From a bacterium (lineage in GTDB: Bacteria; Spirochaetota; UBA4802; UBA5550): a DNA stretch of 28,460 nucleotides. The stretch covers positions 1-28,460 of the forward strand of contig JAAENB010000898.1 in assembly GCA_024224995.1 (NCBI GenBank), given 5' to 3'. Made by a program: the position numbers and the translations under genes. How positions within the stretch are numbered: position 1 is the first letter of the stretch; every line of letters starts with the position of its first letter. Positions 9,777-25,585 of the stretch are shown piece by piece. The notes below the pieces were generated by a model, which had not been told where the DNA came from, made no database searches, and was given only the letters and a program-made list of their open reading frames with translations.

Positions 9777-10859
9777 ATGAAAATAGCCAAAATCGACAGT
9801 ACCATAAAAATCCCGGACCAGCCGGTGTTCATTGTTCCCGGAAAAAACGCCCGGAAAACCACATCGGCCTGGACAAAACAGGACTACTGGGGCGCCTTCA
9901 AAAGCCGCATCAGCGGTTTTCGCATGGATTATATTGTGGAGCCCGGGCTCTATGCCCTGGGAAATCCCGGCGAAGGTTCTAATGTTTTCGTGAGTGCCAA
10001 CTACAAACTGAGCTTTGATGTTCTCAGGAAAGAACTCGCCGGCATGGACGCGTGGATACTGGTTCTCGATACAAAAGGGATCAATGTCTGGTGCGCCGCG
10101 GGCAAAGGCACCTTTGGCACCAATGAACTGGTAAAACGTATTAACGATGTTAGCCTCTCGCGGATTGTCACGCATAAGCGGGTCATTGTTCCACAGCTCG
10201 GCGGCCCCGGAGTGAGCGCCCCTATTGTAAAAAAACAAAGCGGTTTCTCTGTTCTGTTTGGCCCGGTCCAGGCTTCCGATATTCCGGCCTGGCTTGAAAA
10301 TAATTTCACCGCCACAAAAGAAATGCGTGCTATTCAATTCCCCATGAAAGACCGCGTGGTCCTTACCCCTATGGAGCTGAACCCCGTTTTAAAAAAATTC
10401 CCTCTGTACGCGGCTATCTTACTGATTCTCTTTGGTCTTCGTCCCGAAGGGATCATGTTTAAAGATGCTCTTTCGGGCAGCCTGCCCTTCCTTATCCTGG
10501 GGCTTATGGCGATCTTTTCAGGAGCCTTTCTTACTCCCGCGCTCCTTCCGTTTATCCCGTTCCGCTCTTTCGCGATCAAAGGCTGGATCATGGGCGTTCT
10601 CACTTCCGCGCCCCTGGTTTATTTCAGCAATATGTTTTCTTTTAATGATATATCTCTCAACTCCATACTCCTGGCGGTTCCGGTCTTTCTCTTCTTCCCG
10701 CTTGCAAGCTCATACATCGCGCTGCAATTCACGGGCTCAACTACGTTCACGGGAATTTCCGGAGTGAAAAAAGAACTTAAAATTGGCCTGCCAATATATA
10801 TCGCTGCCCTGGTAATTTCATCGATATCATTAATTATATATAAAGTAATTAACTTTTAA
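9777..10859 (+). CDS. hgcA: HgcA, corrinoid mercury methyltransferase
   Basis: The 360-residue protein has the diagnostic HgcA cap-helix motif NVWCAAGKGTFGT with Cys106, the lower-axial cobalt ligand of the corrinoid. This motif separates HgcA from the acetyl-CoA pathway protein CdhD. The corrinoid domain covers about residues 1-185. Five hydrophobic segments follow (near 208-223, 232-258, 268-284, 293-316, 337-357), the HgcA membrane domain. HgcA moves a methyl group from methyl-corrinoid to Hg(II), giving methylmercury, at the inner membrane. GGAG lies 11 bases before the ATG. hgcB follows after 17 bases with its own GGAGGT, the standard pair. The gene is intact and full length. Confidence 0.97.
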   Translation: MKIAKIDSTIKIPDQPVFIVPGKNARKTTSAWTKQDYWGAFKSRISGFRMDYIVEPGLYALGNPGEGSNVFVSANYKLSFDVLRKELAGMDAWILVLDTKGINVWCAAGKGTFGTNELVKRINDVSLSRIVTHKRVIVPQLGGPGVSAPIVKKQSGFSVLFGPVQASDIPAWLENNFTATKEMRAIQFPMKDRVVLTPMELNPVLKKFPLYAAILLILFGLRPEGIMFKDALSGSLPFLILGLMAIFSGAFLTPALLPFIPFRSFAIKGWIMGVLTSAPLVYFSNMFSFNDISLNSILLAVPVFLFFPLASSYIALQFTGSTTFTGISGVKKELKIGLPIYIAALVISSISLIIYKVINF

Positions 10860-10876: not shown

Positions 10877-11179
10877 ATGGTTTATCTTAAAAACGTTTCT
10901 ACGTTAAAGCTCTTCCCGGAAAAATGCACGGGATGTAAAAAATGCACGGAAGTTTGCCCCCGTGCTGTTTTTGATATTATTGAGACGAAAGCTCAAATTA
11001 TCAATCTCGACAACTGTATTGAATGCGGCGCCTGCCTTCGCAACTGCGCCTTTGACGCCATCCGGGTTGAAGCCGGGGTTGGCTGCGCTTCCGCTATTAT
11101 AAACGGCATGCTTACGGGCGGGGAGCCCACGTGCGGATGCAGTGATGATTCTTCTTCGGGATCATCGGGATGCTGCTAA
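10877..11179 (+). CDS. hgcB: HgcB, 2x[4Fe-4S] ferredoxin of mercury methylation
   Basis: A 100-residue ferredoxin with two regular clusters, CTGCKKCTEVCP (Cys17, 20, 23, 27) and CIECGACLRNCA (Cys47, 50, 53, 57). These are followed by the extra conserved Cys70 in the GVGCASAIINGM helix. The tail holds CGC (86, 88) and ends in a vicinal Cys pair (99, 100), the end expected for HgcB and thought to handle Hg(II). HgcB reduces the HgcA cobalt and may hand over mercury. It is co-transcribed with hgcA (17-base gap). The tail is Ser/Gly rich. A hairpin directly after the stop ends the operon. Confidence 0.97.
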   Translation: MVYLKNVSTLKLFPEKCTGCKKCTEVCPRAVFDIIETKAQIINLDNCIECGACLRNCAFDAIRVEAGVGCASAIINGMLTGGEPTCGCSDDSSSGSSGCC

Positions 11180-11182
11180 ACA

Positions 11183-11216
11183 AATGAACGCGACGTTACG
11201 GAACGGCGCGTTCATT
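11183..11216. terminator. Convergent hairpin between hgcB and the MerP-like gene
   Basis: AATGAACGCG (11183-11192) and CGCGTTCATT (11207-11216) form a perfect 10-base stem with a 14-base loop. The stop codon of the minus-strand MerP-like gene sits in the loop, and hgcB stops four bases before it. The T tracts on either side are short, so it may be a weak bidirectional terminator or a stability hairpin. Confidence 0.5.
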
Positions 11217-11531
11217 CTTAAGAGCCGGCTTCTGCTCTAAGTAAACCGGTTTCCCTTCAGAGGGGTATCCCCCGTCTTTTAGCGCCTTTTCCATATTCTC
11301 TACCGTAGCTTTTGTATCTTCAAAAGTAACGGTAGCCGTATTATCCGATGTATCTATTTTGACTTCTATCACCCCATTTACTTCTTTAAGGATAGACCTT
11401 ACCCTTGCCGAATTATTTCAGGAACATCCCGGAACCTGGAATTTTATAATTCTTTCTTTCGCCAAAACCGGACTATCGATAAAAAGAAGGAATATTCCTG
11501 CCAGCAATAAAAGAAGTGCTGTTTTTTTCAT
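11196..11531 (-). CDS. Exported MerP-like HMA-domain protein with in-frame TGA read as selenocysteine
   Basis: Minus strand, ATG at 11531 after GAGGAAA, 111 residues if TGA at 11420-11418 is decoded. A clear signal peptide (MKKTALLLLLAGIFLLF, cleavage after VLA) leads into an HMA domain: KFQVPGCS, Sec38, NNSARVRSILKEV, then the GVIEVKIDTSDNTATVTFED strand pair and the GGYPSE end. The reading frame runs without break on both sides of the TGA, and the domain is complete only when both halves are joined. After the TGA an RNA stem AAGGGU/AUCCUU with loop AAGGUCU begins 11 bases on, loop at base 18, suitable for a bacterial SECIS; the loop contains GGUCU as in E. coli fdhF. It follows the STAS gene by 23 bases and converges on hgcAB. 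It probably binds a soft metal, plausibly Hg(II), in the periplasm; that is inferred. The alternative is a pseudogene with one nonsense mutation. Confidence 0.75.
11388..11420 (-). promoter_or_regulatory. Candidate bacterial SECIS element in the MerP-like gene
   Basis: UGA is at 11420-11418. The stem arms are at 11406-11401 and 11393-11388 (six pairs, one of them G-U), with a 7-base loop 11400-11394 containing GGUCU. The UGA-to-loop distance of about 17 bases fits bacterial SECIS geometry. Found by eye; not folded computationally. Confidence 0.5.
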
Positions 11532-11554: not shown

Positions 11555-11896
11555 TTATCCGGAAAAATATTTATCTTCGAATTCTTTTTTTGAAAGAATA
11601 TCTATTACATTACCAAGTTTTATCATTGAAAAGACCTTTTGAATATATTCATTAGGGCCAAATATTACCAGTTTGATATTTTTTTCAGTAGTGACGTTTG
11701 AAAGCTTGAAAAAATAGTTAATGCCAACCGAATCGATCTGCTCCAGCCCTTCTAAATTTAAGGCTATTGTCTCCGGCTGTTTTTTCAGCTCATCTTCACA
11801 GGGCTCCATCACAAGGCATATCTCTTCCATCAAAAGAAGGCCAATAAACTCGATAATAATAATATTGTTTTTTTCTTCTATTTTTAAATCTATCAT
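11555..11896 (-). CDS. STAS-domain protein (anti-sigma factor antagonist-like)
   Basis: A 113-residue single-domain STAS protein. It has the central beta-strand NLEGLEQIDSVGINYFFKL with Ser in the DSVG context where SpoIIAA/RsbV proteins are phosphorylated, and the following KNIKLVIFGPNEYIQKVF segment. Such proteins bind kinases or anti-sigma factors in partner switching; no partner is nearby. It is the first gene of a minus-strand pair with the MerP-like selenoprotein gene, 23 bases apart. Whether it has anything to do with metal response is unknown. Confidence 0.8.
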   Translation of the reverse strand: MIDLKIEEKNNIIIIEFIGLLLMEEICLVMEPCEDELKKQPETIALNLEGLEQIDSVGINYFFKLSNVTTEKNIKLVIFGPNEYIQKVFSMIKLGNVIDILSKKEFEDKYFSG

Positions 11897-12914: not shown

Positions 12915-12948
12915 CATCGTATTATTACGATAATATAATAATACGATG
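12915..12948 (+). promoter_or_regulatory. Long palindromic operator before the HesB-like gene
   Basis: Arms CATCGTATTATTA and TAATAATACGATG are perfect 13-base inverse repeats around an 8-base centre. The core GTATTATT is shared with the operator at 12440-12465. A TATAAT (12934-12939) within it may be the -10 of an internal promoter; the -35 is poor. The ribosome site GGAGG follows at 12961. Confidence 0.65.
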
Positions 12949-12972
12949 AGACAAACTACCGGAGGACTTACA

Positions 12973-13284
12973 ATGGCAAAAACAAAAGTAGAAATTACAC
13001 AAAAAGCAAGAGAGCAGCTAATAGAGTTAATCAAAAACGCGGATTACAAAAAACCTACTCTCCAGGTAGTTTTACGGGGAGTTGGATGAGGCGGCCCCAG
13101 GCTGGGGCTGGCTCTGGATGAGCTAAAAAACACAGAAGATCTTATCATAAACGAGTCCGATTTACGCCTTTCAGTAGAAAAAGGACTCACCCGTTTTATC
13201 AACAACAGACTGCCAATAACCATTGACTATATGGATTCCCCATACGATTCGGGATTTTTAGTAAGCAATGGACGAAATTGTTAA
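12973..13284 (+). CDS. HesB/IscA-like selenoprotein (in-frame TGA at 13087-13089)
   Basis: ATG after GGAGG; 103 residues if TGA is read as selenocysteine (Sec39). Sequence before: KVEITQKAREQLIELIKNA, then LQVVLRGVG; after the TGA: GGPRLGLALDELKNTED and a normal HesB-type end, PITIDYMDSPYDSGF. In HesB/IscA/ErpA proteins this position is the first of three conserved Cys (GCSG-type loop), so Sec replaces a ligand Cys. HesB-like selenoproteins are a known family. The C-terminal Cys-x-Cys is reduced to one Cys, the last residue. A SECIS-like stem follows at 13110-13124. The role is probably Fe-S or selenium/sulfur related; its position at the head of a molybdoenzyme operon suggests a maturation or redox part. 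Confidence 0.85.
13087..13124 (+). promoter_or_regulatory. Candidate bacterial SECIS element in the HesB-like gene
   Basis: UGA at 13087-13089. Arms GGCUC (13110-13114) and GAGCU (13120-13124) frame the loop UGGAU, which has G near its start as bacterial SECIS loops require. The loop begins 26 bases after UGA, inside the usual range. A stronger competing stem, GCCCC/GGGGC, lies closer to the UGA. Confidence 0.45.
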
Positions 13285-13305
13285 AAAAAGTGCAAGGAAG
13301 AAGTG

Positions 13306-15507
13306 ATGAGTAAAAAACTTAACCGCCGTGAATTTATAAAGATCTCGGGCCTTGGAATAGGCGGGCTTGCAGCAGGAGGAGGACTTTTCAAGCTTGCTTC
13401 AAGTCTCACTGAAGAAGATAAAAAAAACGCGATAATAACCAAAACTCCTACCTATTGCGAAATGTGCACCTTCAAATGCGCGGGCTGGGTCCATCAAAAA
13501 AACGGACAGCCCTGGAAAATTACCGGCAATGAAATTGACGAACACTCCTACGGAAGACTCTGCACCAAAGGCTCTGCCGGAATGGGTGCCTATACCGATC
13601 CCGACAGGCTGCGGGTTCCCCTGATTCGAACCGAAGAAAGAGGAAAGCAGGTTTTTAAAGAAGCAAGCTGGGAAGAGGCCTTCAAATATATCGCGAAAAA
13701 AATGGAAACCATTAAAGAAAAACACGGCCCTGAATCGCTTGCCCTGTTTACCCACGGAGCAGGAGGCTCCTTTTTTAAGTCCCTGCTCAAAGCATACGGA
13801 TCGAACAGCATCACTGCTCCCTCCTACGCCAATTGCCGTGGCCCAAGAGAAGAAGGCTACCTTCTAACTTTTGGAGAAGCCATAAACTCCCCGGAACGGA
13901 CCGATATGAAGAACAGCAAGTGTATTGTTCTTTTGGGCTCACACATTGGAGAGAATACCCATAGCGCCCAGGTTAACGAATTTACCACAGCTCTGGCGAA
14001 CGGCGCGAGCCTCATTGTTGTAGACCCCCGGTTTTCCACAGCCGCGAGCAAAGCAAAATACTGGCTTCCTATTAAACCGGCAACAGACATCGCGCTCCTC
14101 CTTGCCTGGATCAATGTTATAATAGAAGAAGAACTCTACGACAAAGACTATGTTGCCCAATACACAACCGGCTTTAATCAATTAAAAAAAGCAGTTCGAA
14201 AAAATACTCCCGAATGGGCATACCCCATTACTTCAATAGATCCCGAAATTATCCGCGAAAGCGCACGGGAAATGGCAAAAAACAAACCCGGCACCCTTAT
14301 TCACCCGGGCAGGCATAATGTCTGGTATGGTGACGATACCCAGCGCGTACGCGCGGGCGCTATCCTTAACGCGCTCCTGGGAAGCTGGGGCCGCAAGGGC
14401 GGATTTTATCTGCCCACCAAAGCAAGTATACCATCATATCCTCATCCTCCTTATCCAAAACCCAAAAAAGGATGGCGCGATATGATACGGGGGAATTTTG
14501 AGCTGGCAAACCTCTCCCTCTCTTCGGGAATTTGTGAAGCAACAATCCCTTCACCCGACAAAAGCCCGAGTTACAAAGGATGGCTTGTCTACGGAGCCAA
14601 CCTCATTAAAACCATGCCAAACCCGAAACAAACAATAGAAGCAATTCAAAATCTCGATCTTCTTGTGGCTGTTGATATTCTCCCTTCGGAAATAACCGGT
14701 TGGGCAGATGTTGTTCTTCCCGAATGCACGTACCTGGAACGCTACGACGATATACGGGTTTCTCCGGGAAGAAAACCCCAGATCGCGCTCAGGATGCCCG
14801 CGTTCAAACCCCTGTATGATACAAAACCCGCCTGGTGGATGGCTAAAAACCTCGCGGAAACCATGGGACTGGGCTCGTTTTTCCCCTGGAAAAACATCGA
14901 AGAGTATCTCAATTACCGGCTAAAAAAAATCGGCAGTTCACTCAATGAAATGAAAAAAATCGGGGTAAAAAATCTAGCCGGAGATGATCCTCTTTATTTC
15001 GCGAAAGGAGAACAGGTTGAATTTAGTACGGACAGCGGCAAAATAGAACTCTACTCCAAAACCCTTGAAGAATACGGCTTCGATCCTGTTCCAAAATACA
15101 CCCGTCACCAGGAACCGGAACAGGACTTTTTCCGGCTCCTGTACGGCCGGTCTCCCGCTCATTCATTTGGGAGAACCACCAATAATCCCATTCTTACACA
15201 GGTAAAGCCCGAAAACGAAGTCTGGATAAACACTTCAGTAGCAAAAGAATGGAGCATTAATAACGGCCAATACATCCAACTGAAAAACCAGGATGGAACC
15301 ATAAGCAATAAAGTTAAGGTACGGGTTACGGAACGAATCCGTCCCGACTGCGTGTTCATGGTCCACGGCTTTGGCCATACCCAGAAAAAAATGAAACGCT
15401 CCTATAACAAAGGTGCCGATGATACCGCGCTAATGACAAAAATAAGCGTTGACCCGATTATGGGTGGAAACGGTATTAGAAATAATTTTGTAACCCTGGT
15501 TGTATAA
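13306..15507 (+). CDS. Periplasmic molybdopterin oxidoreductase, Psr/Phs-like catalytic subunit
   Basis: A 733-residue member of the DMSO reductase superfamily. It has a twin-arginine signal (NRREFIKISGLGIGG), so the enzyme is exported folded. An N-terminal [4Fe-4S] site follows: CEMC, three residues, C, and a later CTKG. The probable Mo ligand is Cys177 in SYANCRGPREEG, the Cys type used by polysulfide and thiosulfate reductases. The C-terminal MGD-binding part ends normally. ATG 13306 is chosen over the GTG one codon earlier; GGAAG precedes it. It is followed by Fe-S and NrfD subunits and sulfur transporters, so a sulfur-compound reductase or oxidase is the best guess. Substrate cannot be read from sequence. 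Confidence 0.88.
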   Translation: MSKKLNRREFIKISGLGIGGLAAGGGLFKLASSLTEEDKKNAIITKTPTYCEMCTFKCAGWVHQKNGQPWKITGNEIDEHSYGRLCTKGSAGMGAYTDPDRLRVPLIRTEERGKQVFKEASWEEAFKYIAKKMETIKEKHGPESLALFTHGAGGSFFKSLLKAYGSNSITAPSYANCRGPREEGYLLTFGEAINSPERTDMKNSKCIVLLGSHIGENTHSAQVNEFTTALANGASLIVVDPRFSTAASKAKYWLPIKPATDIALLLAWINVIIEEELYDKDYVAQYTTGFNQLKKAVRKNTPEWAYPITSIDPEIIRESAREMAKNKPGTLIHPGRHNVWYGDDTQRVRAGAILNALLGSWGRKGGFYLPTKASIPSYPHPPYPKPKKGWRDMIRGNFELANLSLSSGICEATIPSPDKSPSYKGWLVYGANLIKTMPNPKQTIEAIQNLDLLVAVDILPSEITGWADVVLPECTYLERYDDIRVSPGRKPQIALRMPAFKPLYDTKPAWWMAKNLAETMGLGSFFPWKNIEEYLNYRLKKIGSSLNEMKKIGVKNLAGDDPLYFAKGEQVEFSTDSGKIELYSKTLEEYGFDPVPKYTRHQEPEQDFFRLLYGRSPAHSFGRTTNNPILTQVKPENEVWINTSVAKEWSINNGQYIQLKNQDGTISNKVKVRVTERIRPDCVFMVHGFGHTQKKMKRSYNKGADDTALMTKISVDPIMGGNGIRNNFVTLVV

Positions 15508-15519
15508 GAGGAATTTATT

Positions 15520-16071
15520 ATGAAAGAAAAAAATAGAAAATACGCCATGGTAATAGACACAAAAGTCTGTGTCGGCTGCGGAGCCTGCGTTGTTGCCTGT
15601 AAAACCGAGAACGAAGTTCCCGAAGGACTGCACCGGGTCTGGGTTGTGGAAGAACTTTCGGGCAGCTTTCCCAATCTTAACCTGGAGATCCGTTCCGAAC
15701 GATGCAACCATTGCAGCAATTCACCCTGTGTCTCTGCCTGTCCTACCAAAGCCAGTCATTTTGTTGAAGGCACGAATATAGTTGATGTTGATAAAGGCAA
15801 ATGCACGGGTTGTAAAGCCTGTATGGCAGCCTGCCCCTACAATGCCCGTTTTGTTATGCCCGAAGGGTACATTGGGAAATGCAGCTTTTGCAGGCACCGC
15901 CTGGCAAAGGGTGAGAAACCCGCGTGCGCGTCGGTATGTCCCGCTCACGCGATCCATTTTGGTGATCTTAACAACCCTCAAAGCGAGGTTTCCAAATTGT
16001 TAGGGGCGAGAAAATATAAGACAATTATTCCCGAAGCAGGGACAGAGCCAAATATCTATTACCTGGTATAA
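15520..16071 (+). CDS. Four-cluster ferredoxin subunit of the molybdoenzyme (PsrB/PhsB/NrfC-like)
   Basis: A 183-residue electron-transfer subunit with sixteen cysteines for four [4Fe-4S] clusters: CVGCGACVVACK, CNHCSNSPCVSACP, CTGCKACMAACP and CSFC...CASVCP. This is the DMSO reductase B-subunit pattern. There is no signal peptide, so it is presumably carried across the membrane with the Tat-bearing catalytic subunit. It links that subunit to the NrfD-type quinol-interacting protein. The gap to the catalytic gene is 12 bases, and to the membrane subunit 26 bases. Confidence 0.94.
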   Translation: MKEKNRKYAMVIDTKVCVGCGACVVACKTENEVPEGLHRVWVVEELSGSFPNLNLEIRSERCNHCSNSPCVSACPTKASHFVEGTNIVDVDKGKCTGCKACMAACPYNARFVMPEGYIGKCSFCRHRLAKGEKPACASVCPAHAIHFGDLNNPQSEVSKLLGARKYKTIIPEAGTEPNIYYLV

Positions 16072-16097
16072 GCGTACCGGGTTACTGAGGTTATCGA

Positions 16098-17090
16098 ATG
16101 AATACAATGAACGAAATAGTTATCACAACAAATAAGATCAGCCATGCAGCGGGTTCTTCCCTGGGCATATGGAACTGGGAAGTACCGGTTTACCTCTTCC
16201 TGGGCGGCTTAACAGCGGGTATTCTCATTATTGCGGCGGTAATGATCCTCAGGAATAAAGAAAAGACCTTTCCTGTTGCGGCAAATAAAATCATTCTCCT
16301 GGCACCGGTTCTCCTTACCCTGGGAATGTTCGCGCTCTTCCTTGACCTGGAACATAAACTCTATGTCTGGCGATTCTATACCGCCTTTAATATAACATCG
16401 GTAATGTCATGGGGCTCCTGGATACTGCTGCTTGTTTACCCGGTAAGTTTATTGCTCATTGCCGGTACCTTCAGACAGAGCTATCCCGGTTTTTATTCCC
16501 GCATAGAATCGTTTATTCAAGGCTCGAAACTGAACAGGTTTATTAAGCTCTATTATTGGATCTTTGATTTTTCAGAAAAATATAAGAGAAAAGCCGCCAT
16601 GATCACCATCCCTGTTGGGGTGTTCCTGGGAATTTACACCGGCGTACTGTTAAGCGCCTTTGGCGCGCGTCCTTTCTGGAACTCCGGTATATTTGGTCCC
16701 CTGTTCCTTGTTTCAGGTATGTCTACTGCCGCCGCGCTCATTCTTTTACTGGCAAAAGAAAAAGAAGAAAAACTCTTCTTCATGAAACTTGATCTTTCTT
16801 TAATCGCGGTGGAAGCTTTTTTACTCATCCTGTTTATTGTGGGGCTGGTCACGTCAACGTCGCAGCATATTAACGCGGCCGGGCTTATTCTGGGCGGGGC
16901 TTTAACCCCGGTTTTCTGGATATTCATTTTCGGCATCGGCCTGGGACTGCCCGCGTTCCTTGAAGCTCTTGAGCTGAAAGGAAAACATATACCAGCGGCT
17001 CTCGCGCCGGTCCTTGTTTTAGCAGGCGGCTTATTGCTGCGAATAATATTAGTAGAGGGAGGCCAGATGATTTCCTGGCTGCCCTATTAA
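16098..17090 (+). CDS. NrfD/PsrC-type membrane subunit
   Basis: A 330-residue integral membrane protein with eight or nine hydrophobic segments, beginning near WNWEVPVYLFLGGLTAGILI. That start, and the later FLDLEHKLYVWRFYTAFN and GVFLGIYTGVLLSAFGARPFWNS, are typical of NrfD/PsrC proteins, which exchange electrons with quinones and anchor the periplasmic molybdoenzyme. Together with the two preceding genes it makes a complete three-subunit complex of polysulfide or thiosulfate reductase type. GAGG lies before the ATG. Confidence 0.93.
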   Translation: MNTMNEIVITTNKISHAAGSSLGIWNWEVPVYLFLGGLTAGILIIAAVMILRNKEKTFPVAANKIILLAPVLLTLGMFALFLDLEHKLYVWRFYTAFNITSVMSWGSWILLLVYPVSLLLIAGTFRQSYPGFYSRIESFIQGSKLNRFIKLYYWIFDFSEKYKRKAAMITIPVGVFLGIYTGVLLSAFGARPFWNSGIFGPLFLVSGMSTAAALILLLAKEKEEKLFFMKLDLSLIAVEAFLLILFIVGLVTSTSQHINAAGLILGGALTPVFWIFIFGIGLGLPAFLEALELKGKHIPAALAPVLVLAGGLLLRIILVEGGQMISWLPY

Positions 17091-17132
17091 ATATAAACTT
17101 ATTGTCTCAATCCATTTGGAGGATATAGATCG

Positions 17133-17645
17133 ATGGAACAAAAAAAATACTCATCTCCATATATAGCCGGTGTAGGACTGGGGCTTGTATTGCTCGCCTC
17201 GTTCTTCATCGCGGGCCGGGGCCTGGGAGCGTCCGGCGCTTTGATGCGGACCGTTGTTGCCGCGGAGAAAACAATATCTACGGAACACGTGAACAATAAT
17301 ACCTACCTCGCCAAATACGGCGGCGAAGAGAAAAACCCTTTCGACAACTGGCTTGTTTTTGAGGTCATTGGTGTCCTGGTTGGGGGAATGTTATCCGGCG
17401 CTCTTGCGGGCCGACTTAAAAAAGAGACGAATAAAGGGCCGAACATCAGCAATAAACAGCGCTGGGCTTTTGCTCTTCTTGGCGGCAGCCTCTTTGGTTT
17501 TGGAGCAAGGCTTGCCAGGGGCTGTACCAGCGGGGTAGCCCTGTCAGGGGGCGCGACTCTTGCCCTGGGCAGCTGGGTAACCATGATCGCTATTTTTGTT
17601 GGCGCTTATGCGGCAGCTTATTTTGTTAGAAGATTATGGATTTAG
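17133..17645 (+). CDS. YeeE/YedE half-transporter, first half
   Basis: A 170-residue membrane protein of the YeeE/YedE (DUF395) family, which imports thiosulfate (TsuA) or has been tied to selenium and sulfur handling. The family hallmark is present near the end: GFGARLARGCTSGVALSGGATLALGSW, with the conserved Cys. There are about four hydrophobic segments. It has GGAGG before the ATG. It is followed after 10 bases by a second YeeE/YedE-type gene; together they correspond to the two pseudo-symmetric halves of a full-length protein. Confidence 0.88.
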   Translation: MEQKKYSSPYIAGVGLGLVLLASFFIAGRGLGASGALMRTVVAAEKTISTEHVNNNTYLAKYGGEEKNPFDNWLVFEVIGVLVGGMLSGALAGRLKKETNKGPNISNKQRWAFALLGGSLFGFGARLARGCTSGVALSGGATLALGSWVTMIAIFVGAYAAAYFVRRLWI

Positions 17646-17655
17646 GAGATATACT

Positions 17656-18258
17656 ATGGGACCTATAGCAATACTACAAGACTGGGGCGACGGAGTGGGC
17701 TTTTTAGCAGCCTTTATTATCGGCATCGGGTTTGGTTTCGCTCTTGAACGGGCCGGGTTTGGTAATTCAAAAAAGCTGGCTATGCAATTCTACTTCCGGG
17801 ATCTCACTGTTTTTAAAGTGATGTTTACCGCGATTATTACAGCCATGACCGGGATCATTTTCCTGGGAGCCTTTGGAATACTCGATATTTCAAGTATTTA
17901 TATCAATCCTACGTACTTATGGCCGGGACTGGCAGGCGGGCTTATAATGGGCCTGGGATTCGTCATAGGCGGTTACTGTCCGGGCACCAGCGTTGTGGGA
18001 CTGTCCACGTTTAAAATGGACGCCGTATTTTATATAACCGGCGCCTTATTCGGCATGTTTGTTTTTGGCGAAATCGCGCCGTTTATTCAAGGATTTTTTA
18101 AAGGCGAATTCAGCGGTTACTACGGAACCATTACCATTTACCAGGCTCTCGGAGTATCCAGCGGCGTAATTGGCTTCCTGGTTATACTCATGGCTCTGGG
18201 CGGCTTCTGGGGATCGGAATGGCTTGAGAAAAAATTCGGTGAAGGAGAAGCAAAATGA
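17656..18258 (+). CDS. YeeE/YedE half-transporter, second half
   Basis: A 200-residue membrane protein of the same family. It begins GPIAILQDWGDGVGF and carries the LERAGFGNSKKLAMQFYF segment and the second conserved Cys site GGYCPGTSVVGLSTFKMDAVFY. The ATG at 17656 follows AGGAG; the frame opens earlier, inside the preceding gene, without a ribosome site. Its end overlaps the rhodanese gene by four bases (ATGA). With the first half it probably forms a transporter for a sulfur species that feeds the molybdoenzyme or sulfur assimilation. Substrate is inferred. Confidence 0.88.
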   Translation: MGPIAILQDWGDGVGFLAAFIIGIGFGFALERAGFGNSKKLAMQFYFRDLTVFKVMFTAIITAMTGIIFLGAFGILDISSIYINPTYLWPGLAGGLIMGLGFVIGGYCPGTSVVGLSTFKMDAVFYITGALFGMFVFGEIAPFIQGFFKGEFSGYYGTITIYQALGVSSGVIGFLVILMALGGFWGSEWLEKKFGEGEAK

Positions 18259-18878
18259 AATTTGTAAACAAACAAACCGGGGTTATCATTGCCCTTATCC
18301 TTGGTGCTCTAATGCTGCTGCTGCCGACTCAGGATAAAACCAAATATTCATTTGAGCCTTCACTGCTGGCCAAAGCGATAAGCAATAACGAAGACCAGGT
18401 AAGCCCGGTGGAGCTTTCCGACTGGATAATTAAAGGCAAAAACGATTACCAGCTCATCGACATTCGGTCCGAAAAAGAATACGGGAACGGTTCTATTAAG
18501 GGAGCGGAAAATATCCCTCTTGAAAAACTACTTAAAAAAGAGACCATAAACGACGAGTTAAGTGACAGTAAAATAATTGTTCTCTACTCTACAGGGAATT
18601 CACACGCCCACCAGGCTTGGCTGGTCTTAAAAAGCGTGGGCAAAGACGCGTACGTTCTTGAAGGCGGATATAATTTCTGGAACAGTATGATCTTAAATCC
18701 CAAACTCCCTTCCCGGGAAGCTTCGGATGATGAGATTCTCAAGTATAAAAAAGCCAAATATATTGCGGCATTCTTTGGCGGCAGTTCTGCCCAGGTAGAG
18801 TCCGCCGACGGCGCGACTCCTCAAGCCAAAAAGCCCGTTAAGAGGAAGAAAAAGAAGAAAAAACTTGAGGGATGTTGA
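18255..18878 (+). CDS. Membrane-anchored rhodanese-like protein lacking the catalytic cysteine
   Basis: A 207-residue protein: an N-terminal membrane anchor (VIIALILGALMLLLP, residues 10-24), then a rhodanese fold at about 50-145 (YQLIDIRSEKEYGNGSIKGA, IIVLYSTGNSHAHQAW, AYVLEGGYNFW). In active rhodaneses the loop after the central strand begins with Cys; here it is Ser112 and the loop is one residue shorter, so sulfur transfer in the usual way is unlikely. A lysine-rich tail ends in a lone Cys. The last codons are TGT TGA TAG. Overlap with the second YeeE/YedE gene suggests a functional unit, perhaps as a sulfur-binding or regulatory partner. Confidence 0.85.
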   Translation: MKFVNKQTGVIIALILGALMLLLPTQDKTKYSFEPSLLAKAISNNEDQVSPVELSDWIIKGKNDYQLIDIRSEKEYGNGSIKGAENIPLEKLLKKETINDELSDSKIIVLYSTGNSHAHQAWLVLKSVGKDAYVLEGGYNFWNSMILNPKLPSREASDDEILKYKKAKYIAAFFGGSSAQVESADGATPQAKKPVKRKKKKKKLEGC

Positions 18879-19106: not shown

Positions 19107-20867
19107 ATGAAGAAAATATTCTATTTTTTTATTTTAATAATTATTCCCGGCATTTTATTTGCTAAACCAGGCATAGATGTTTTAAATCTTGATACAAGCT
19201 CTTTTCCTGACATTTCATTGAATATAGCATTGACAGGTGGAACGGGAGAATCAAGTACAAATAAAAATGAGTATATAATTCTTTTTAATAACCAACCCGT
19301 AGATTACTCTTTACATGCGCAAAAAGTTATACCACCTACCTCAACACTTGTTCTCATCGATGCCTCCTATTCATTACGGGAAGGGAAATTACAACAAATT
19401 AAATCCTCAGCTAAAAGATTTATCAAAAAAATCTCCGAAAAAGATACCTGTGCAGTATTCATTTTTCATGATACATTGGAAAAAAAATGCGATTTTACCA
19501 CTGATAAAAATAAACTTATTACGTGTATTAACAACATTCGTAGAAACGGGAAAAATACACTGCTATACAACTCAGCTATTGAGGCTATTGATTTCCTTTC
19601 AAAAGACCATGTAAATACTAACAAAACAATTTTACTGTATAGTGATGGATATGATCAATATTCGAAATATACAGTAAACAATGTTATAGAAAAAGCAAAA
19701 TCGTTACAAATTCATATTTTCACTGATGGCTACACAAATACCCATCACCGCCATTTAAAAAGTTTAAAACAATTAGCGAGTAAAACAGGCGGGTTATACG
19801 CGTATAACAGTAATATTGATTTATATAAAAAAATGTTTTCATATAAACAAGACCGTCTGCTTCAATTTTCTTTTGAAGGTGAAAATCTGCAAAAAAACAA
19901 CCATATCACCCTAAAAAACACAAAATATAATATCACGAAAAATATATATTTTAAATCCCCGGACTATACAGCGGCTAATTCTTCTACAAATAAAAAAGTA
20001 CAATTAAAGATCATTCTTGGTATTATAGTTTTTTCTTTTTTACTCCTGGGGATTATACTAATCTTTAAATTGCCCAAAAAAAAATATGGTTTTCAAAAAA
20101 GGATTACCAAAACAGTACCGGGATTAAAAGAAATATTAGACGCGTTTGAAGACGACATTGCTGAACATGAAAAAGATATTATAGGAATAAAAACCTATGA
20201 TGATAGTGATTCGGACTTTGATCTGTTTGCTGATATTTTTCTAAATAACAAAGGAAAAATGAATGTTGAGATGAATCAAATCTTAAATGCTATTTTCAAT
20301 CTTGACAGTAATAAAATATCAAAATTAATTCCATTTATGATTCATGTTGTTAAAGATTCAAGTGGTTTTGAAAAAGACAACAATCTAAACCTTCTAAAAG
20401 AAATGGCACAGAATTTAAATTTATCCTTAGATACTGAAAATGATATTAACCATTTAGAAGAATGGTGGAATAAAAACAAAGAAAAAGTAAATGCTGAAAT
20501 AAAAAAACAAAATGAGAACAAATCTTTTGAAAAATTTCAAAAAGATGAAAACCTGTTATTTTATTTTATAGAAGACAACAACATTCGAGAGGGTACCGGT
20601 TCAGTAGTAACAGCTAACAATGAGGAATTTATTGTTTTATCGGATAGCAAAATCCTGCTTGATACAATTCTCTGTTTTTATAGAATAAATGCTAATAGTA
20701 ATTCGACCACTGTCAGTTTAGATGATTATTATTTTCTACAATTACATGAAATTTCAAAAGAGAAGAATAAAACGTATCGACTAAAATCTCTTCGGATCAG
20801 TTCCGAACAAATGGAGAATGAGGACGTTAAAAAAATAGTAAATTTTTTATTGGTGAATAAATCATGA
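19107..20867 (+). CDS. von Willebrand factor A-domain membrane protein with cytoplasmic C-terminus
   Basis: A 586-residue protein. It has a signal peptide (residues 1-19) and a vWA domain at about 78-250. The MIDAS site is complete: DASYS at 85-89, Thr151 in GKNTLL and Asp180 in LLYSDGYD. A single membrane helix (about 300-320) follows, then a lysine-rich stop and about 265 cytoplasmic residues that I do not recognise. The vWA domain would lie outside the membrane and bind a metal-dependent ligand. No ribosome site is seen before the ATG. The stop overlaps the cyclase gene by four bases (ATGA), so the two are coupled; a sensor that passes a signal to the cyclase is a reasonable but unproven idea. 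Confidence 0.82.
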   Translation: MKKIFYFFILIIIPGILFAKPGIDVLNLDTSSFPDISLNIALTGGTGESSTNKNEYIILFNNQPVDYSLHAQKVIPPTSTLVLIDASYSLREGKLQQIKSSAKRFIKKISEKDTCAVFIFHDTLEKKCDFTTDKNKLITCINNIRRNGKNTLLYNSAIEAIDFLSKDHVNTNKTILLYSDGYDQYSKYTVNNVIEKAKSLQIHIFTDGYTNTHHRHLKSLKQLASKTGGLYAYNSNIDLYKKMFSYKQDRLLQFSFEGENLQKNNHITLKNTKYNITKNIYFKSPDYTAANSSTNKKVQLKIILGIIVFSFLLLGIILIFKLPKKKYGFQKRITKTVPGLKEILDAFEDDIAEHEKDIIGIKTYDDSDSDFDLFADIFLNNKGKMNVEMNQILNAIFNLDSNKISKLIPFMIHVVKDSSGFEKDNNLNLLKEMAQNLNLSLDTENDINHLEEWWNKNKEKVNAEIKKQNENKSFEKFQKDENLLFYFIEDNNIREGTGSVVTANNEEFIVLSDSKILLDTILCFYRINANSNSTTVSLDDYYFLQLHEISKEKNKTYRLKSLRISSEQMENEDVKKIVNFLLVNKS

Positions 20868-23800
20868 AAAGCCTCTATAAAAAATATCTTCATAATGATT
20901 ACCTGAAAAAAATCCAAAATAGCTGCATGTCTCCACATGATACGAATCAAATGTTGAAAAAGTATAATAACATTTTACGTATCATTTCTACATATATCCC
21001 CCAGAATATTGTGATAAGTAAAATTCGAAATGTTGAGGACAAGACGCATTCCGGCAATTTTGTAGAAGGAACTCTTCTTTTTGCAGATGTAAGCGGGTTT
21101 ACCGCACTTACGGAAAAACTCAGCAGCCAGGGCTATGAAGGTTCTGAAGAAATAACACGAATCCTCAATAATTTTTTTATGGTTATGGTTGAAGTCATTC
21201 TTCAATACGGCGGCATATTATTAAAATATGGCGGTGATGCGATGATGATATATTTTTCCACGGATGACGATTTTTGTGGAAAAGATCATGTGTATCATGC
21301 TGTTTCATGTGCCAATGAAATGCGCAATGCAATGTCTAATTTTTCATTAATTGAATCAAAATTTGGTTCATTTTCCCTGCAAATGAGCATGTCAGTGCAT
21401 ACCAATACTTTTTTTGAAACTATTGTTGGTGATCCCTCTATCCATTGTGAATATTTCCTTACGGGCGCAGGAGTTGAAGAGACAGCCATCCTGGAAGGCA
21501 AAACAGGTAAAGGAGAGATATTACTGGATAAAAACACTTACACAAAAATAAAGGATCATGTGAATGGTTTTTCTTTAAAAGAAAATTGCTATTTAATTGA
21601 AGCCTTTAACAGTAAAAAAATGCCAACAGTAACAAAATCCAAGTTTTCAATTGATTATGATAATATTGATGATATCCTGAAGAGGCTGGATGCATTATTA
21701 AATTTCGTTATGAGAGGGGTGTATGACAAAGTAAAATTATCCTGGAAAAGCCTTGTTCTTGAAGGCGAGTACCGGCCCGTAACAATAGTTTTTCTAAATT
21801 TTTATTTCTTACGTGACCTTCATAAGGATTTTGAGTATACGAATGAAGAAACGATCCAATCAATATATAATGAATATTTTCTAATGGTCCAGAAAAATGT
21901 GGAGCATCATGACGGTACAATCAATAAAATAGATATGTATGATAAAGGGGATAAAATAATAATTATATTTGGCTTCCCTCAGTCACATGCTGATGATGAA
22001 AAGCGAGCAGTAAAATGCATGAACTCAATTTTAGAAGAGGGGAAAAAATTTATAAAAAGAAAAGTCAAGGATGTGGAATTTACAATTCATCAGAAGATTG
22101 GAATTCACTCCGGCTTTATATTTTGCGGCAATGTGGGTTCACCCTTACGACAGGAATATACAATTATTGGTGATTCCGTGAACCTGTCCGCGCGCTTGAT
22201 GAGTGCCGCAAAAGATAACCAGATGTTAATAACCGACTCTATATTAAAAGAAACCTCCAACATCGTTACAATTGAATATTCTGAAAAAAAGACATTCAAA
22301 GGAAAATCCAATAAAATTCCTGTACACGCCGTAGAATCAGTCAGGGATCGTGGAACAGTCAAAGTAGAATTCTTTATTGGCAGGAATAAAGAATTAGATA
22401 TATTGGAAAAGCAATTACATGAATCTTCAGACAAGTTTAACGCAATACAGATTGTTGGCCCAGCCGGTATGGGTAAATCTTTTTTAATACAGGAGTTTTT
22501 ACGAAATAATATAGTTGATCACGAAATAATTGCCGGAAGAGGCCTTCCAATTGGATCAGCTGTACAGTTTCATACAATAAAAGAAATGTTAATGCTTATC
22601 TTTGGTATCATCTCCAAAGATAATGACGATACCATAAAAGAAAAAATTAATAAATTAATCTCCTACTTGAAATTAGAGAATCTCGCTTTTTCAATACCTC
22701 TTATTGGTGTTTTGTTATCAAAGGCATACAAAAATGAAGCTGTTTTAGAAATAGAAGACCCAACTGAAAAAAAAGAACTGTTCTTTAGCACCTTTTACCA
22801 AATAATTAAAGCAAAATGCGAACTGAGTCCCTGCATTCTTCTTTGTGAGGATGGTGAATGGCTTGATAAAAAAAGTATAGAAACATTAAATTATTTAGTC
22901 AAAAGACGCGTGAAAAATTTATTTATCATAGTACTAACACGAAAAGAGTTACCCTTTCAGGGTACTATGAAGACCCTGAATCTCAAACCCTTTAATGAAA
23001 ATGAAGTAAATGACTTTATAGATCAATATCCTCACCTGGCGGATATACCCGCAAAGGTTCAAAAACAAATTCAGGAAAAAAGCAGAGGGGTTCCGTATTT
23101 CATTTTTGAATTACTTAATTCAATACGGGACAGAGGAGTTAATTCCCGTTTGCCCGATTCCATCTATAAGAGTATTCTATCCCGGCTCGATGAAATGGGT
23201 GAAGAAAATAAAGACCTCATAAAAAAAGCTTCCGTTTTTGGCATCAGTTTCAAACAAGATCTCCTGCAAAAACTCACAGAGGATAAAATTGATATTGAAA
23301 GTATAATTAAAAAAATTATTACAGAAGATTATATAATGAAAAGCGGTACGGATGAATACATTTTTCGCAATATGATGGTACAGGAAGTAACATACAATTT
23401 ACTTTCAGTAAAAAAAAGAAAAAAATTACATTCAACAATTGCTGCCATCATTGAAAAAGAAGGGGATATAACACCATATTATGAGATTCTCGCCTACCAT
23501 TATGAAAAGTCAGAAGTATATGATAAAGCAATTTATTATTTTGAAAAATCCGGTGATAAAGCCGTTCAATTAAACAATTACCCCAATGCGATAGAATTTT
23601 TTGACATGGCTCTTTCATTAATGGTTCACTCAAAGAAAAAAGAAACCTATAGTAAAACCGAAGCAGACATCCTTGGCAAAAAAGGCAACGTTTTAATAAG
23701 CATTGGTGAATTTTCGAAAGCACAAAAGGCATTCACCCAATCAAAAAAGATAGCTAAAGAATATGGTTTAGATGATGAAATAGCTTTTGCTGAAATAAAT

Positions 23801-25585
23801 CTTGCAGAAATCTACTTGAAAAAAGGTAATTTCAAAAAAGCTCATACAACTTTTAATCAATCTATTACCCTTTATAAAAAAATAAACAATAATAACCAGT
23901 TAGGAAAATGTTATTTAAACCTGGGAATTGTTAAAAAACTTACCGGGGAAAGCAAAAACGCATTTGAATATTTCGAAGAGTCAATAGCATACTATGAGCA
24001 AGAAAATAATATTTCAGGGATTGCAGATGTTTATACGAATAGAGGGAACCTGGCAAAAGAATTGTCAGATTTTGATTACGCGTTAGAATCATATAATAAC
24101 GCTATGGAATTATATAATGAGATAGATCATGAATTCGGCAAAGCATCAATACTAAATAATATTGGCACACTCTACAATTCCCTGGGAAAATATAAAGAAG
24201 CAATAAAGCATTTTAAGGAAAGTCAATACATAGAAGAAAAAATCGGAAATGAGAAGGGTACAGTCGTTTGTTTAAATAACCTGGGTAACTCATATTCATT
24301 ATTGCGTGATTGGGATGTTGCTGATGATTATTTTATACAGGGTTTAGAGATTGCCAACCAGGTAAAAAACCCGGAGGATTTAGCCAATATATATCTCAAT
24401 CGCGGCGTAATGTATATGTATAAAGAAGAATACGTCATGGCAAAAGATTTAATTCTAAAAGCTGTTGAATATTTTTCTGTGGTTAAGGATGGACATGGTC
24501 TCTATACTTCATTTTACAATCTTGGTTTGATATTTCAAAAACAAAACGACATAGATAAATCATTGGAATACTTTAATAAGGCTCTTAATGAAGCAAAACT
24601 CCTTGACACGAAAATATATATAAAGGCAGCCCTAAATATTTCTCTAAACTATTACACGGTCAACAAAATTAAGAGAGCATTGGAGCTGGTTACCGCCGCT
24701 ATTTCCGCAAGCGAGAATATTTCATATTATTCTTTATCAGCTGAATTATATCAAGCTGCAGCCAAATACCATACAGCACTAAAAGAAAATGAACAAGCAA
24801 TTGAATATTTGCAACAATCACAACAGCTATGGCATCAACACTCCGAAGAAAAAAGTGCAGCCTATACCGGAATACAACTGGCTCAGCTATATTTAGAAAA
24901 CAATGATATAGAAAAAGCAAAAGAAGAGTTAAACAAGTCTTTGCTGTTTTTTGATTCAAGCAATGATATAGTTGGCAAGATATATAGCCAGACAAAAATT
25001 GCCTCCTTATACGAAGGAATTAATGATATTGAATCTGCGAATAGCCATTATGAAAGCAGTTTGAATGAACTGGAAAAGATTGGTTTTGAACAACAACTGC
25101 CGTATATTTATGAGAAAATAGCATTGAATTACTTGAAAATAGACAATCTCTCAAAGGCCATTAGTACATTACAAAAAGCCATTCGCATTGCAGAAGAGCA
25201 GTCTTCTACTGATACAGCGCATTGTTTTTTTGTTTTAGCTGATATATATTACAAGATTAAGAATTTTTCATTAGCCGTAGAATACTATGAAAAGGGATTT
25301 GAACAAGATTTTTTTACCGATACTTCCCAAAAGGAACATGCAGCATATAAAATAGGAACTCTTTATAAAAACTCAGGTAATGCTAAAACAGCAATTAAAT
25401 ATTTTGAGCTGTGCGCAGTATCTCATGATTTACCTGTTAAGATAATTGCGAATAAGCAGCTCGCTCTTATTTATGATAGTATTGGTGATACAGTACTACT
25501 AAAACAAACATTAATAGAAATTTCAGATCTTGAAAAAAATTCGGAAAAGAAAGATTTGCTCAAGAAGTGCCTTAATAATTTTTAA
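20864..25585 (+). CDS. Soluble adenylyl cyclase-like protein: two class III cyclase domains, NTPase, TPR array
   Basis: A 1573-residue protein with the same order as animal soluble adenylyl cyclase (sAC/ADCY10). C1 (about 65-250) has both metal Asp residues, Asp75 in FADVSGFT and Asp125 in KYGGDAMM, but lacks the transition-state Asn/Arg. C2 (about 300-490) has lost the first metal Asp (Asn312 in FLNFYF) yet keeps Lys355 (INKIDMYDKGDK), Thr433, Asn440 and Arg444 (EYTIIGDSVNLSAR), the ATP-type set. One hybrid active site is thus expected, making cAMP. A P-loop NTPase follows (GPAGMGKS near 530, Walker-B-like LLCEDGEW near 657), then more than fifteen TPR-like repeats from about 880 to the end. 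It is cytoplasmic and coupled to the vWA gene. Confidence 0.9.
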   Translation: MKSLYKKYLHNDYLKKIQNSCMSPHDTNQMLKKYNNILRIISTYIPQNIVISKIRNVEDKTHSGNFVEGTLLFADVSGFTALTEKLSSQGYEGSEEITRILNNFFMVMVEVILQYGGILLKYGGDAMMIYFSTDDDFCGKDHVYHAVSCANEMRNAMSNFSLIESKFGSFSLQMSMSVHTNTFFETIVGDPSIHCEYFLTGAGVEETAILEGKTGKGEILLDKNTYTKIKDHVNGFSLKENCYLIEAFNSKKMPTVTKSKFSIDYDNIDDILKRLDALLNFVMRGVYDKVKLSWKSLVLEGEYRPVTIVFLNFYFLRDLHKDFEYTNEETIQSIYNEYFLMVQKNVEHHDGTINKIDMYDKGDKIIIIFGFPQSHADDEKRAVKCMNSILEEGKKFIKRKVKDVEFTIHQKIGIHSGFIFCGNVGSPLRQEYTIIGDSVNLSARLMSAAKDNQMLITDSILKETSNIVTIEYSEKKTFKGKSNKIPVHAVESVRDRGTVKVEFFIGRNKELDILEKQLHESSDKFNAIQIVGPAGMGKSFLIQEFLRNNIVDHEIIAGRGLPIGSAVQFHTIKEMLMLIFGIISKDNDDTIKEKINKLISYLKLENLAFSIPLIGVLLSKAYKNEAVLEIEDPTEKKELFFSTFYQIIKAKCELSPCILLCEDGEWLDKKSIETLNYLVKRRVKNLFIIVLTRKELPFQGTMKTLNLKPFNENEVNDFIDQYPHLADIPAKVQKQIQEKSRGVPYFIFELLNSIRDRGVNSRLPDSIYKSILSRLDEMGEENKDLIKKASVFGISFKQDLLQKLTEDKIDIESIIKKIITEDYIMKSGTDEYIFRNMMVQEVTYNLLSVKKRKKLHSTIAAIIEKEGDITPYYEILAYHYEKSEVYDKAIYYFEKSGDKAVQLNNYPNAIEFFDMALSLMVHSKKKETYSKTEADILGKKGNVLISIGEFSKAQKAFTQSKKIAKEYGLDDEIAFAEINLAEIYLKKGNFKKAHTTFNQSITLYKKINNNNQLGKCYLNLGIVKKLTGESKNAFEYFEESIAYYEQENNISGIADVYTNRGNLAKELSDFDYALESYNNAMELYNEIDHEFGKASILNNIGTLYNSLGKYKEAIKHFKESQYIEEKIGNEKGTVVCLNNLGNSYSLLRDWDVADDYFIQGLEIANQVKNPEDLANIYLNRGVMYMYKEEYVMAKDLILKAVEYFSVVKDGHGLYTSFYNLGLIFQKQNDIDKSLEYFNKALNEAKLLDTKIYIKAALNISLNYYTVNKIKRALELVTAAISASENISYYSLSAELYQAAAKYHTALKENEQAIEYLQQSQQLWHQHSEEKSAAYTGIQLAQLYLENNDIEKAKEELNKSLLFFDSSNDIVGKIYSQTKIASLYEGINDIESANSHYESSLNELEKIGFEQQLPYIYEKIALNYLKIDNLSKAISTLQKAIRIAEEQSSTDTAHCFFVLADIYYKIKNFSLAVEYYEKGFEQDFFTDTSQKEHAAYKIGTLYKNSGNAKTAIKYFELCAVSHDLPVKIIANKQLALIYDSIGDTVLLKQTLIEISDLEKNSEKKDLLKKCLNNF

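Follow-up and report, generated by a model that had tools for sequence, protein, structure and literature searches.

Among the described systems, MerP (profile TIGR02052; structures 1afi and 1osd) is the best match in profile and in fold to the protein considered here, and both combine a signal-peptide-like start with a single HMA domain. A selenocysteine (Sec, U) form of MerP has been recorded by name. The 2008 GOS survey lists a "Mercuric transport protein MerP" among its selenoproteins (PMC2398784). The row reads 2, 1, 0, which we take, from the figures of the row itself, as two Sec sequences and no Cys homologues; the likeness of that protein to ours is one of name. In addition, two selenoprotein families with HMA-related parts are represented among the NCBIfam models, namely the HMA-like UxxU metal-binding (seleno)protein (NF041115) and the MerT/CopZ fusion-like selenoprotein (NF045683). 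A 2026 review counts 119 prokaryotic Sec families or subfamilies, and its Table 1 includes MerT-like (PF02411), UxxU metal-binding, HgcA and HgcB entries, the last two with Sec forms in CU and GVGU motifs, respectively; that table has no row for a C-x-U HMA protein or for MerP (PMC13188914). The open-access papers searched, judged by titles and the beginnings of abstracts, yielded no paper about a Sec MerP beside hgcAB. The preliminary description of the present locus was aware of no such protein in association with hgcAB; this agrees with the literature as far as the association is concerned, but a Sec MerP as such is already present in the GOS survey. Sec-containing MerP is accordingly not wholly new, and it is the Cys-x-Sec form, absent from the 26 Nitrospirota genes described below, that looks new.

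The locus lies in a window of 28,460 nucleotides, i.e. the whole stretch of DNA analysed, from a contig assigned to the Spirochaetota (JAAENB010000898.1). The MerP-like HMA gene occupies 11196..11531 on the reverse strand and contains a single in-frame TGA (11418..11420) at residue 38; its translation reads MKKTALLLLLAGIFLLFIDSPVLAKERIIKFQVPGCS up to that codon and NNSARV...P after it, so that the surroundings are VPGCS-U-NNSARV, and the frame is open everywhere else. A probable signal peptide is encoded at 11460..11531, with cleavage likely after VLA (residue 24), as judged by eye from the sequence. When the TGA is read as Sec, the Pfam HMA domain (PF00403) extends across it over residues 31-89 and, at 31.2 bits, exceeds its cut-off of 24.8. 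None of the NCBIfam models listed for the protein reaches its own cut-off; the best score among them is that of the MerP profile TIGR02052, which aligns over residues 1-92, thus including the putative signal peptide stretch, and reaches 57.2 bits where 92.55 are required. An AF2 model built on a 50-sequence alignment has a mean pLDDT of 82, with blocks at 89-96 between residues 31 and 100, and shows the order of strands and helices of the HMA type; in the PDB it is matched best by two structures of MerP, 1osd (E 1.1e-6) and 1afi. The earlier claim that one in-frame TGA splits a signal-peptide-bearing HMA gene at its metal loop is therefore borne out by the translation and by the HMA match across the codon. 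We conclude that the product is probably a single-domain HMA selenoprotein, with export predicted from the sequence.

The metal loop of this protein differs from those of the described families. In the alignments with CxxC MerP sequences designated A1 and A5, Sec38 is aligned with the first of the two metal-binding Cys of MerP, Cys36 stands two residues earlier, and the second Cys is missing, whereas a third alignment (A3) sets a one-residue gap at the Sec column. The placement in A1 and A5 is preferred, because VPG-x-x-U and VPG-x-x-C are equally spaced from VPG; in a PDB profile alignment, the Trp found in relatives of the protein likewise sits on MerP's first Cys. In contrast to the GMTCxxC of MerP, the window protein thus has Sec for the first Cys, lacks the second one, and carries an extra Cys two residues before Sec, in agreement with the C-x-U spacing noted at the outset (GCSU). 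It also differs from the UxxU family in having C-x-U, and scores 23.8 bits with NF041115 against a cut-off of 95, although 14 of the 16 members of A1 match that model at E 0.001. Similarly, 12 of the 16 match NF045683 at E 0.001, but this is a fusion model of 235 positions, with which the window protein scores 27.7 bits against a cut-off of 375. The Sec forms of HgcA and HgcB are likewise selenoproteins, ones tied to mercury methylation; in the window, however, hgcA and hgcB are Cys forms and Sec resides in the separate HMA protein.

Homologues with TGA or Cys at the codon, a check proposed in the preliminary description, were found in the Nitrospirota. Two overlapping samples were used, one of 395 genomes, of which 126 gave at least one HMA match at E 0.001, and one of 176 genomes from a single order, of which 59 gave a match at E 1e-5. 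After translation of the loci, TGA occurred at the same column in at least 26 homologous genes from 21 genomes, two of these genes (L107 and L108) being divergent and placed by eye; the TGA matches G195:C10 and G348:C247 stand outside this count. Ten of the 26 have the motif PGITU. A Cys within 12 residues of Sec is absent from all 26, so there is no chelating pair at that place in them and Cys36 of the window protein is not common to them. Nine CxxC copies (L021, L023, L027, L032, L047, L048, L114, L115 and L117) and one copy with a single Cys (L113) were left out of the Sec count, since their TGA lies outside the domain as an ordinary stop or upstream of it. One further HMA gene (L116, genome G157) has C-x-x-U, with Sec at the second instead of the first Cys, and was kept apart from the 26. 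Cys occupies the Sec column in L016/P0001, P0004, P0010 and P0025, and the Sec gene L106 and the Cys protein P0025 make a Sec/Cys pair identical at 75 of 103 residues (73%). Searches with the single window sequence gave no matches in the protein collection and no relatives in the genome scan. With P0003 as the query, viral contigs gave none, and 3600 plasmid records were returned, all below 60% identity, the 20 matches listed being merP, "cation transporter" or unannotated. Meanwhile, P0036, P0061 and 22 other proteins of 58 or 59 residues that start with MA (e.g. MAASDAAK...) resemble post-TGA fragments of Sec HMA genes, 18 of these 24 sequences having been viewed.

A bacterial SECIS-like stem-loop lies at 11388..11406 on the reverse strand, with the loop AAGGUCU and 17 nt from the TGA to the loop. 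Taken by itself, the stem is no better than chance: 28 of 200 and 32 of 200 shuffled sequences fold equally well, and p is 0.08 in a shorter stretch. The post-TGA stretches of 18 Nitrospirota genes and the window were folded together with it, and 18 of the 19 fold better than their own shuffled mean, 10 of them at p up to 0.05. In an alignment of these 19 sequences (A4), a five-pair stem has 93.7% of its cells paired, against 74.5% in shuffled alignments, and scores 0.611 for covariation as compared with 0.249, neither value being reached in any of 500 shuffles, which ignore kinship among the 19 genes. Double-sided changes occur at four of the five pairs, and every slid version of the stem scores lower; two of the five covariation measures, namely how many pairs show double changes and how many pair types occur, are unexceptional (reached by 70 and 63 of the 500 shuffles, respectively). 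The window sequence forms all five pairs. The SECIS support for the window gene therefore rests on covariation with its relatives, because the standalone fold is no better than chance. The earlier claim of a SECIS-like stem with GGUCU in its loop holds for the stem and the loop. At gathering scores no Rfam family matched within the window, and a tRNA scan of the window found none.

The genomic distribution of SelB is in line with Sec insertion. SelB exceeded its cut-off in 172 of the 395 Nitrospirota genomes, including 17 of the 18 carriers of Sec HMA genes as against 155 of the 377 others (p 5e-6), G218 being the sole carrier without it; none of six genomes picked for ordinary CxxC MerP had SelB over the cut-off. 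In the window itself, a second TGA-containing gene (12946..13284, forward strand; motif GVGUGGP) is flanked by genes for ArsR and a molybdopterin oxidoreductase. It appears to be HesB/IscA-like, its best match being NF038090 IscA_HesB_Se with 56 bits (cut-off 85), followed by TIGR01911 with 36.5 bits (cut-off 66.35), while Pfam gave no match up to E 0.1; a strong stem follows its TGA as well (z -2.5). Though below the family cut-offs, this gene supports Sec use in the organism, as had been proposed. Translation of TGA as Trp throughout was also considered and is unlikely, as nine of the 26 window ORFs that were treated as genes end in TGA. The HesB-like gene is followed on the forward strand, at 13303-18878, by a sulfur-compound module, with a PhsA-like molybdopterin reductase, Fe-S and membrane-subunit-like genes (these two recognised by eye), two Sulf_transp (YeeE/YedE) genes and a rhodanese.

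Trp in homologues had been named in the preliminary description as a sign against Sec, and at face value it is what the nearest relatives show. Among the 237 matches in the protein collection, 120 of them listed, all of the best 30 (40-50% local identity) have Trp at the Sec column and none has Cys there, and 28 of these 30 have VPGC, giving VPGC-x-W. As Trp is one base away from TGA, such a pattern would fit a true stop at the codon, produced by a nonsense mutation of TGG or another codon in a decaying gene, and some of the full-length Trp calls come from long contigs (P0144, 31.8 kb; P0145, 10.8 kb), their codons being known here from the protein only. Three observations, however, point to a misread TGA in at least some of the relatives. 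The protein P0002 shows Trp where the DNA of L008, on another contig, has TGA, and the other 94 of the 95 residues are equal by eye; this near-identity is strong evidence, if not proof, that a TGA was probably translated with another code. Furthermore, 20 short gene calls of the VPGC subfamily (43-62 residues, chosen as short and excluding the window's own) start only past the column, in five cases by one or two residues, as expected if a gene caller meets a stop there. P0159, encoded on a contig of 43.7 kb, matches the end of P0121, a protein with Trp, at 100% identity over 45 residues. By this indirect evidence, at least some of the VPGC-x-W relatives probably represent TGA read as Trp. The covarying stem, the HesB-like TGA gene nearby and the otherwise open frame also stand against a true stop, which is hardly credible. 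Sec is the best reading, because it is the one that the TGA homologues, the Sec/Cys pair, the SECIS covariation and the co-occurrence with SelB jointly indicate, and the TGA of the window gene very probably encodes it. On this reading, the product of 11196-11531 is a selenoprotein of the MerP-like HMA type, in which Sec replaces the first ligand and, in the window subfamily, is preceded by a Cys at a distance of two residues.

The gene lies next to the mercury methylation genes. hgcA (9777..10859, forward strand; NVWCAAGK) scores 401 bits with NF040863 (cut-off 275) and hgcB (10877..11179, forward strand) scores 118.8 bits with NF040864 (cut-off 99), both being Cys forms; hgcA of the window shares no more than 65% identity with hgcA of Nitrospirota. 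hgcB and the HMA gene converge on a strong inverted repeat at 11183..11216 (fold -16.8 kcal/mol, z -5.6), a probable shared terminator. On its other side, the HMA gene is preceded at a distance of 23 nt by a STAS-domain gene (11555..11896, reverse strand; Pfam STAS 45.9 bits), which has the same orientation and is a possible operon partner; judged from this spacing, expression of the HMA gene together with the STAS gene is the more likely arrangement. No mer genes were found among the nine other window proteins scanned, and thus there is no mer operon among them. Elsewhere in the window, 20864-25585 on the forward strand encode a protein of 1573 residues with a cyclase-like start, an ATPase-like middle and a long TPR-like tail (by eye), adjoining a VWA-like protein.

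Mercury binds selenolates strongly, and to our knowledge the route by which it reaches HgcAB and the exit of methylmercury from the cell are open questions. With the HMA gene directly adjoining hgcAB, a Sec MerP-like protein dedicated to methylation might therefore be proposed, capturing periplasmic Hg(II) for HgcAB or the methylmercury product from it. Among the 395 Nitrospirota genomes, hgcA was counted in 57 after removal of four with distant hgcA-like genes (G155, G191, G272 and G381) from 61, and it is enriched in carriers of Sec HMA genes (10 of 18 versus 47 of 377 others, p 3e-5). The association is weak, however, once SelB is fixed (10 of 17 carriers versus 44 of 155 others, p 0.024, uncorrected for kinship), and the two genes in the window converge on a common hairpin. 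Moreover, hgcA was found at none of 21 Nitrospirota loci with Sec homologues (17 loci of 7-20 kb, out of a set of 20 tested, and four more); two weak hgcB matches in that set of 20 (32% over 63 residues) are in our reading generic ferredoxin similarity. Conversely, an HMA homologue was found at none of 31 Nitrospirota hgcA loci, which represent 30 distinct genes, as L001 and L076 are the same place, come from 30 of the 57 hgcA genomes, and mostly cover 1.5 kb on each side. One of them, L001 from a Nitrospirae MAG, was the single locus returned by the hgcA genome scan and holds no HMA homologue in its 14.9 kb. Because of these two counts, both from Nitrospirota, a recurrent hgcAB neighbourhood is not apparent; the adjacency is a single case so far, and the link of the HMA gene to hgcAB is weak. 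A dedicated part in methylation appears unlikely. It is rather improbable that the Cys-x-Sec subfamily, which is known from the contig host and many metagenomes, would be a dedicated periplasmic Hg(II) or methylmercury ligand of methylating anaerobes and the first selenolate-based carrier of mercury with a connection to HgcAB. Of the Cys/Sec periplasmic mercury binder proposed earlier, the Sec and the MerP-like nature have stood, upheld by the homologues, the Sec/Cys pair, the covariation and SelB, but the role in supplying mercury is not supported, given the convergent genes and the two counts of zero.

The gene neighbourhoods of the Nitrospirota carriers are varied. In two genomes, the Sec HMA gene stands in the order ArsR, HMA(Sec), a membrane protein that we take to resemble TauE/SafE, and SelD (L041, 7668-10534, and L043, 9320-12196; SelD at 342.6 and 340.3 bits, respectively, cut-off 125), an arrangement that hints at a selenium-linked gene set; the membrane protein of L041 has no NCBIfam match at E 1e-8. 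In another carrier, NifU-like and NqrF-like genes are followed by a pair of HMA(Sec) copies, and the remaining listed neighbourhoods differ. What fits best is a family without one common pathway, which may handle soft metals and perhaps serve selenium supply in some members.

The best explanation, to which we assign a probability of about two in three, is a probably exported Sec MerP-like HMA protein of general soft-metal (or selenium-linked) function, which stands beside hgcAB by chance and has no dedicated part in methylation. The Sec38 selenolate, helped in the window subfamily by Cys36, would bind Hg(II), methylmercury, Cu(I) or another soft metal in the periplasm, and the bound metal would then be sequestered or handed on. 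The most likely role of the protein, as read from its sequence, is that of a soft-metal ligand in the periplasm, and a function in mercury binding is plausible. The C-x-U arrangement could instead point to a redox protein, with a selenenylsulfide between Cys36 and Sec38 and an HMA fold that is used for thiol/selenol chemistry or the reduction of peroxides instead of metal binding; the 2026 review considers that most prokaryotic selenoproteins still uncharacterized probably have redox functions, and its Table 1 gives CxU motifs in other families (PMC13188914). A Cys near Sec is found in none of the 26 Nitrospirota members, however, and the fold is of the HMA and not the thioredoxin-like type, both of which make a redox role doubtful.

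The protein is part of a larger family of Sec MerP-like proteins that has drawn little notice. Gene calling either splits its members into fragments of 43-62 residues or renders the codon as Trp. Both for mercury on its way to HgcAB and for methylmercury on its way out of the cell, a selenolate in the periplasm would be a ligand of unusual strength. Even without a link to hgcAB, the family offers a Sec/Cys series in a metal-binding fold with Sec at a metal-ligand position, which makes the role of Sec in binding metals directly testable.
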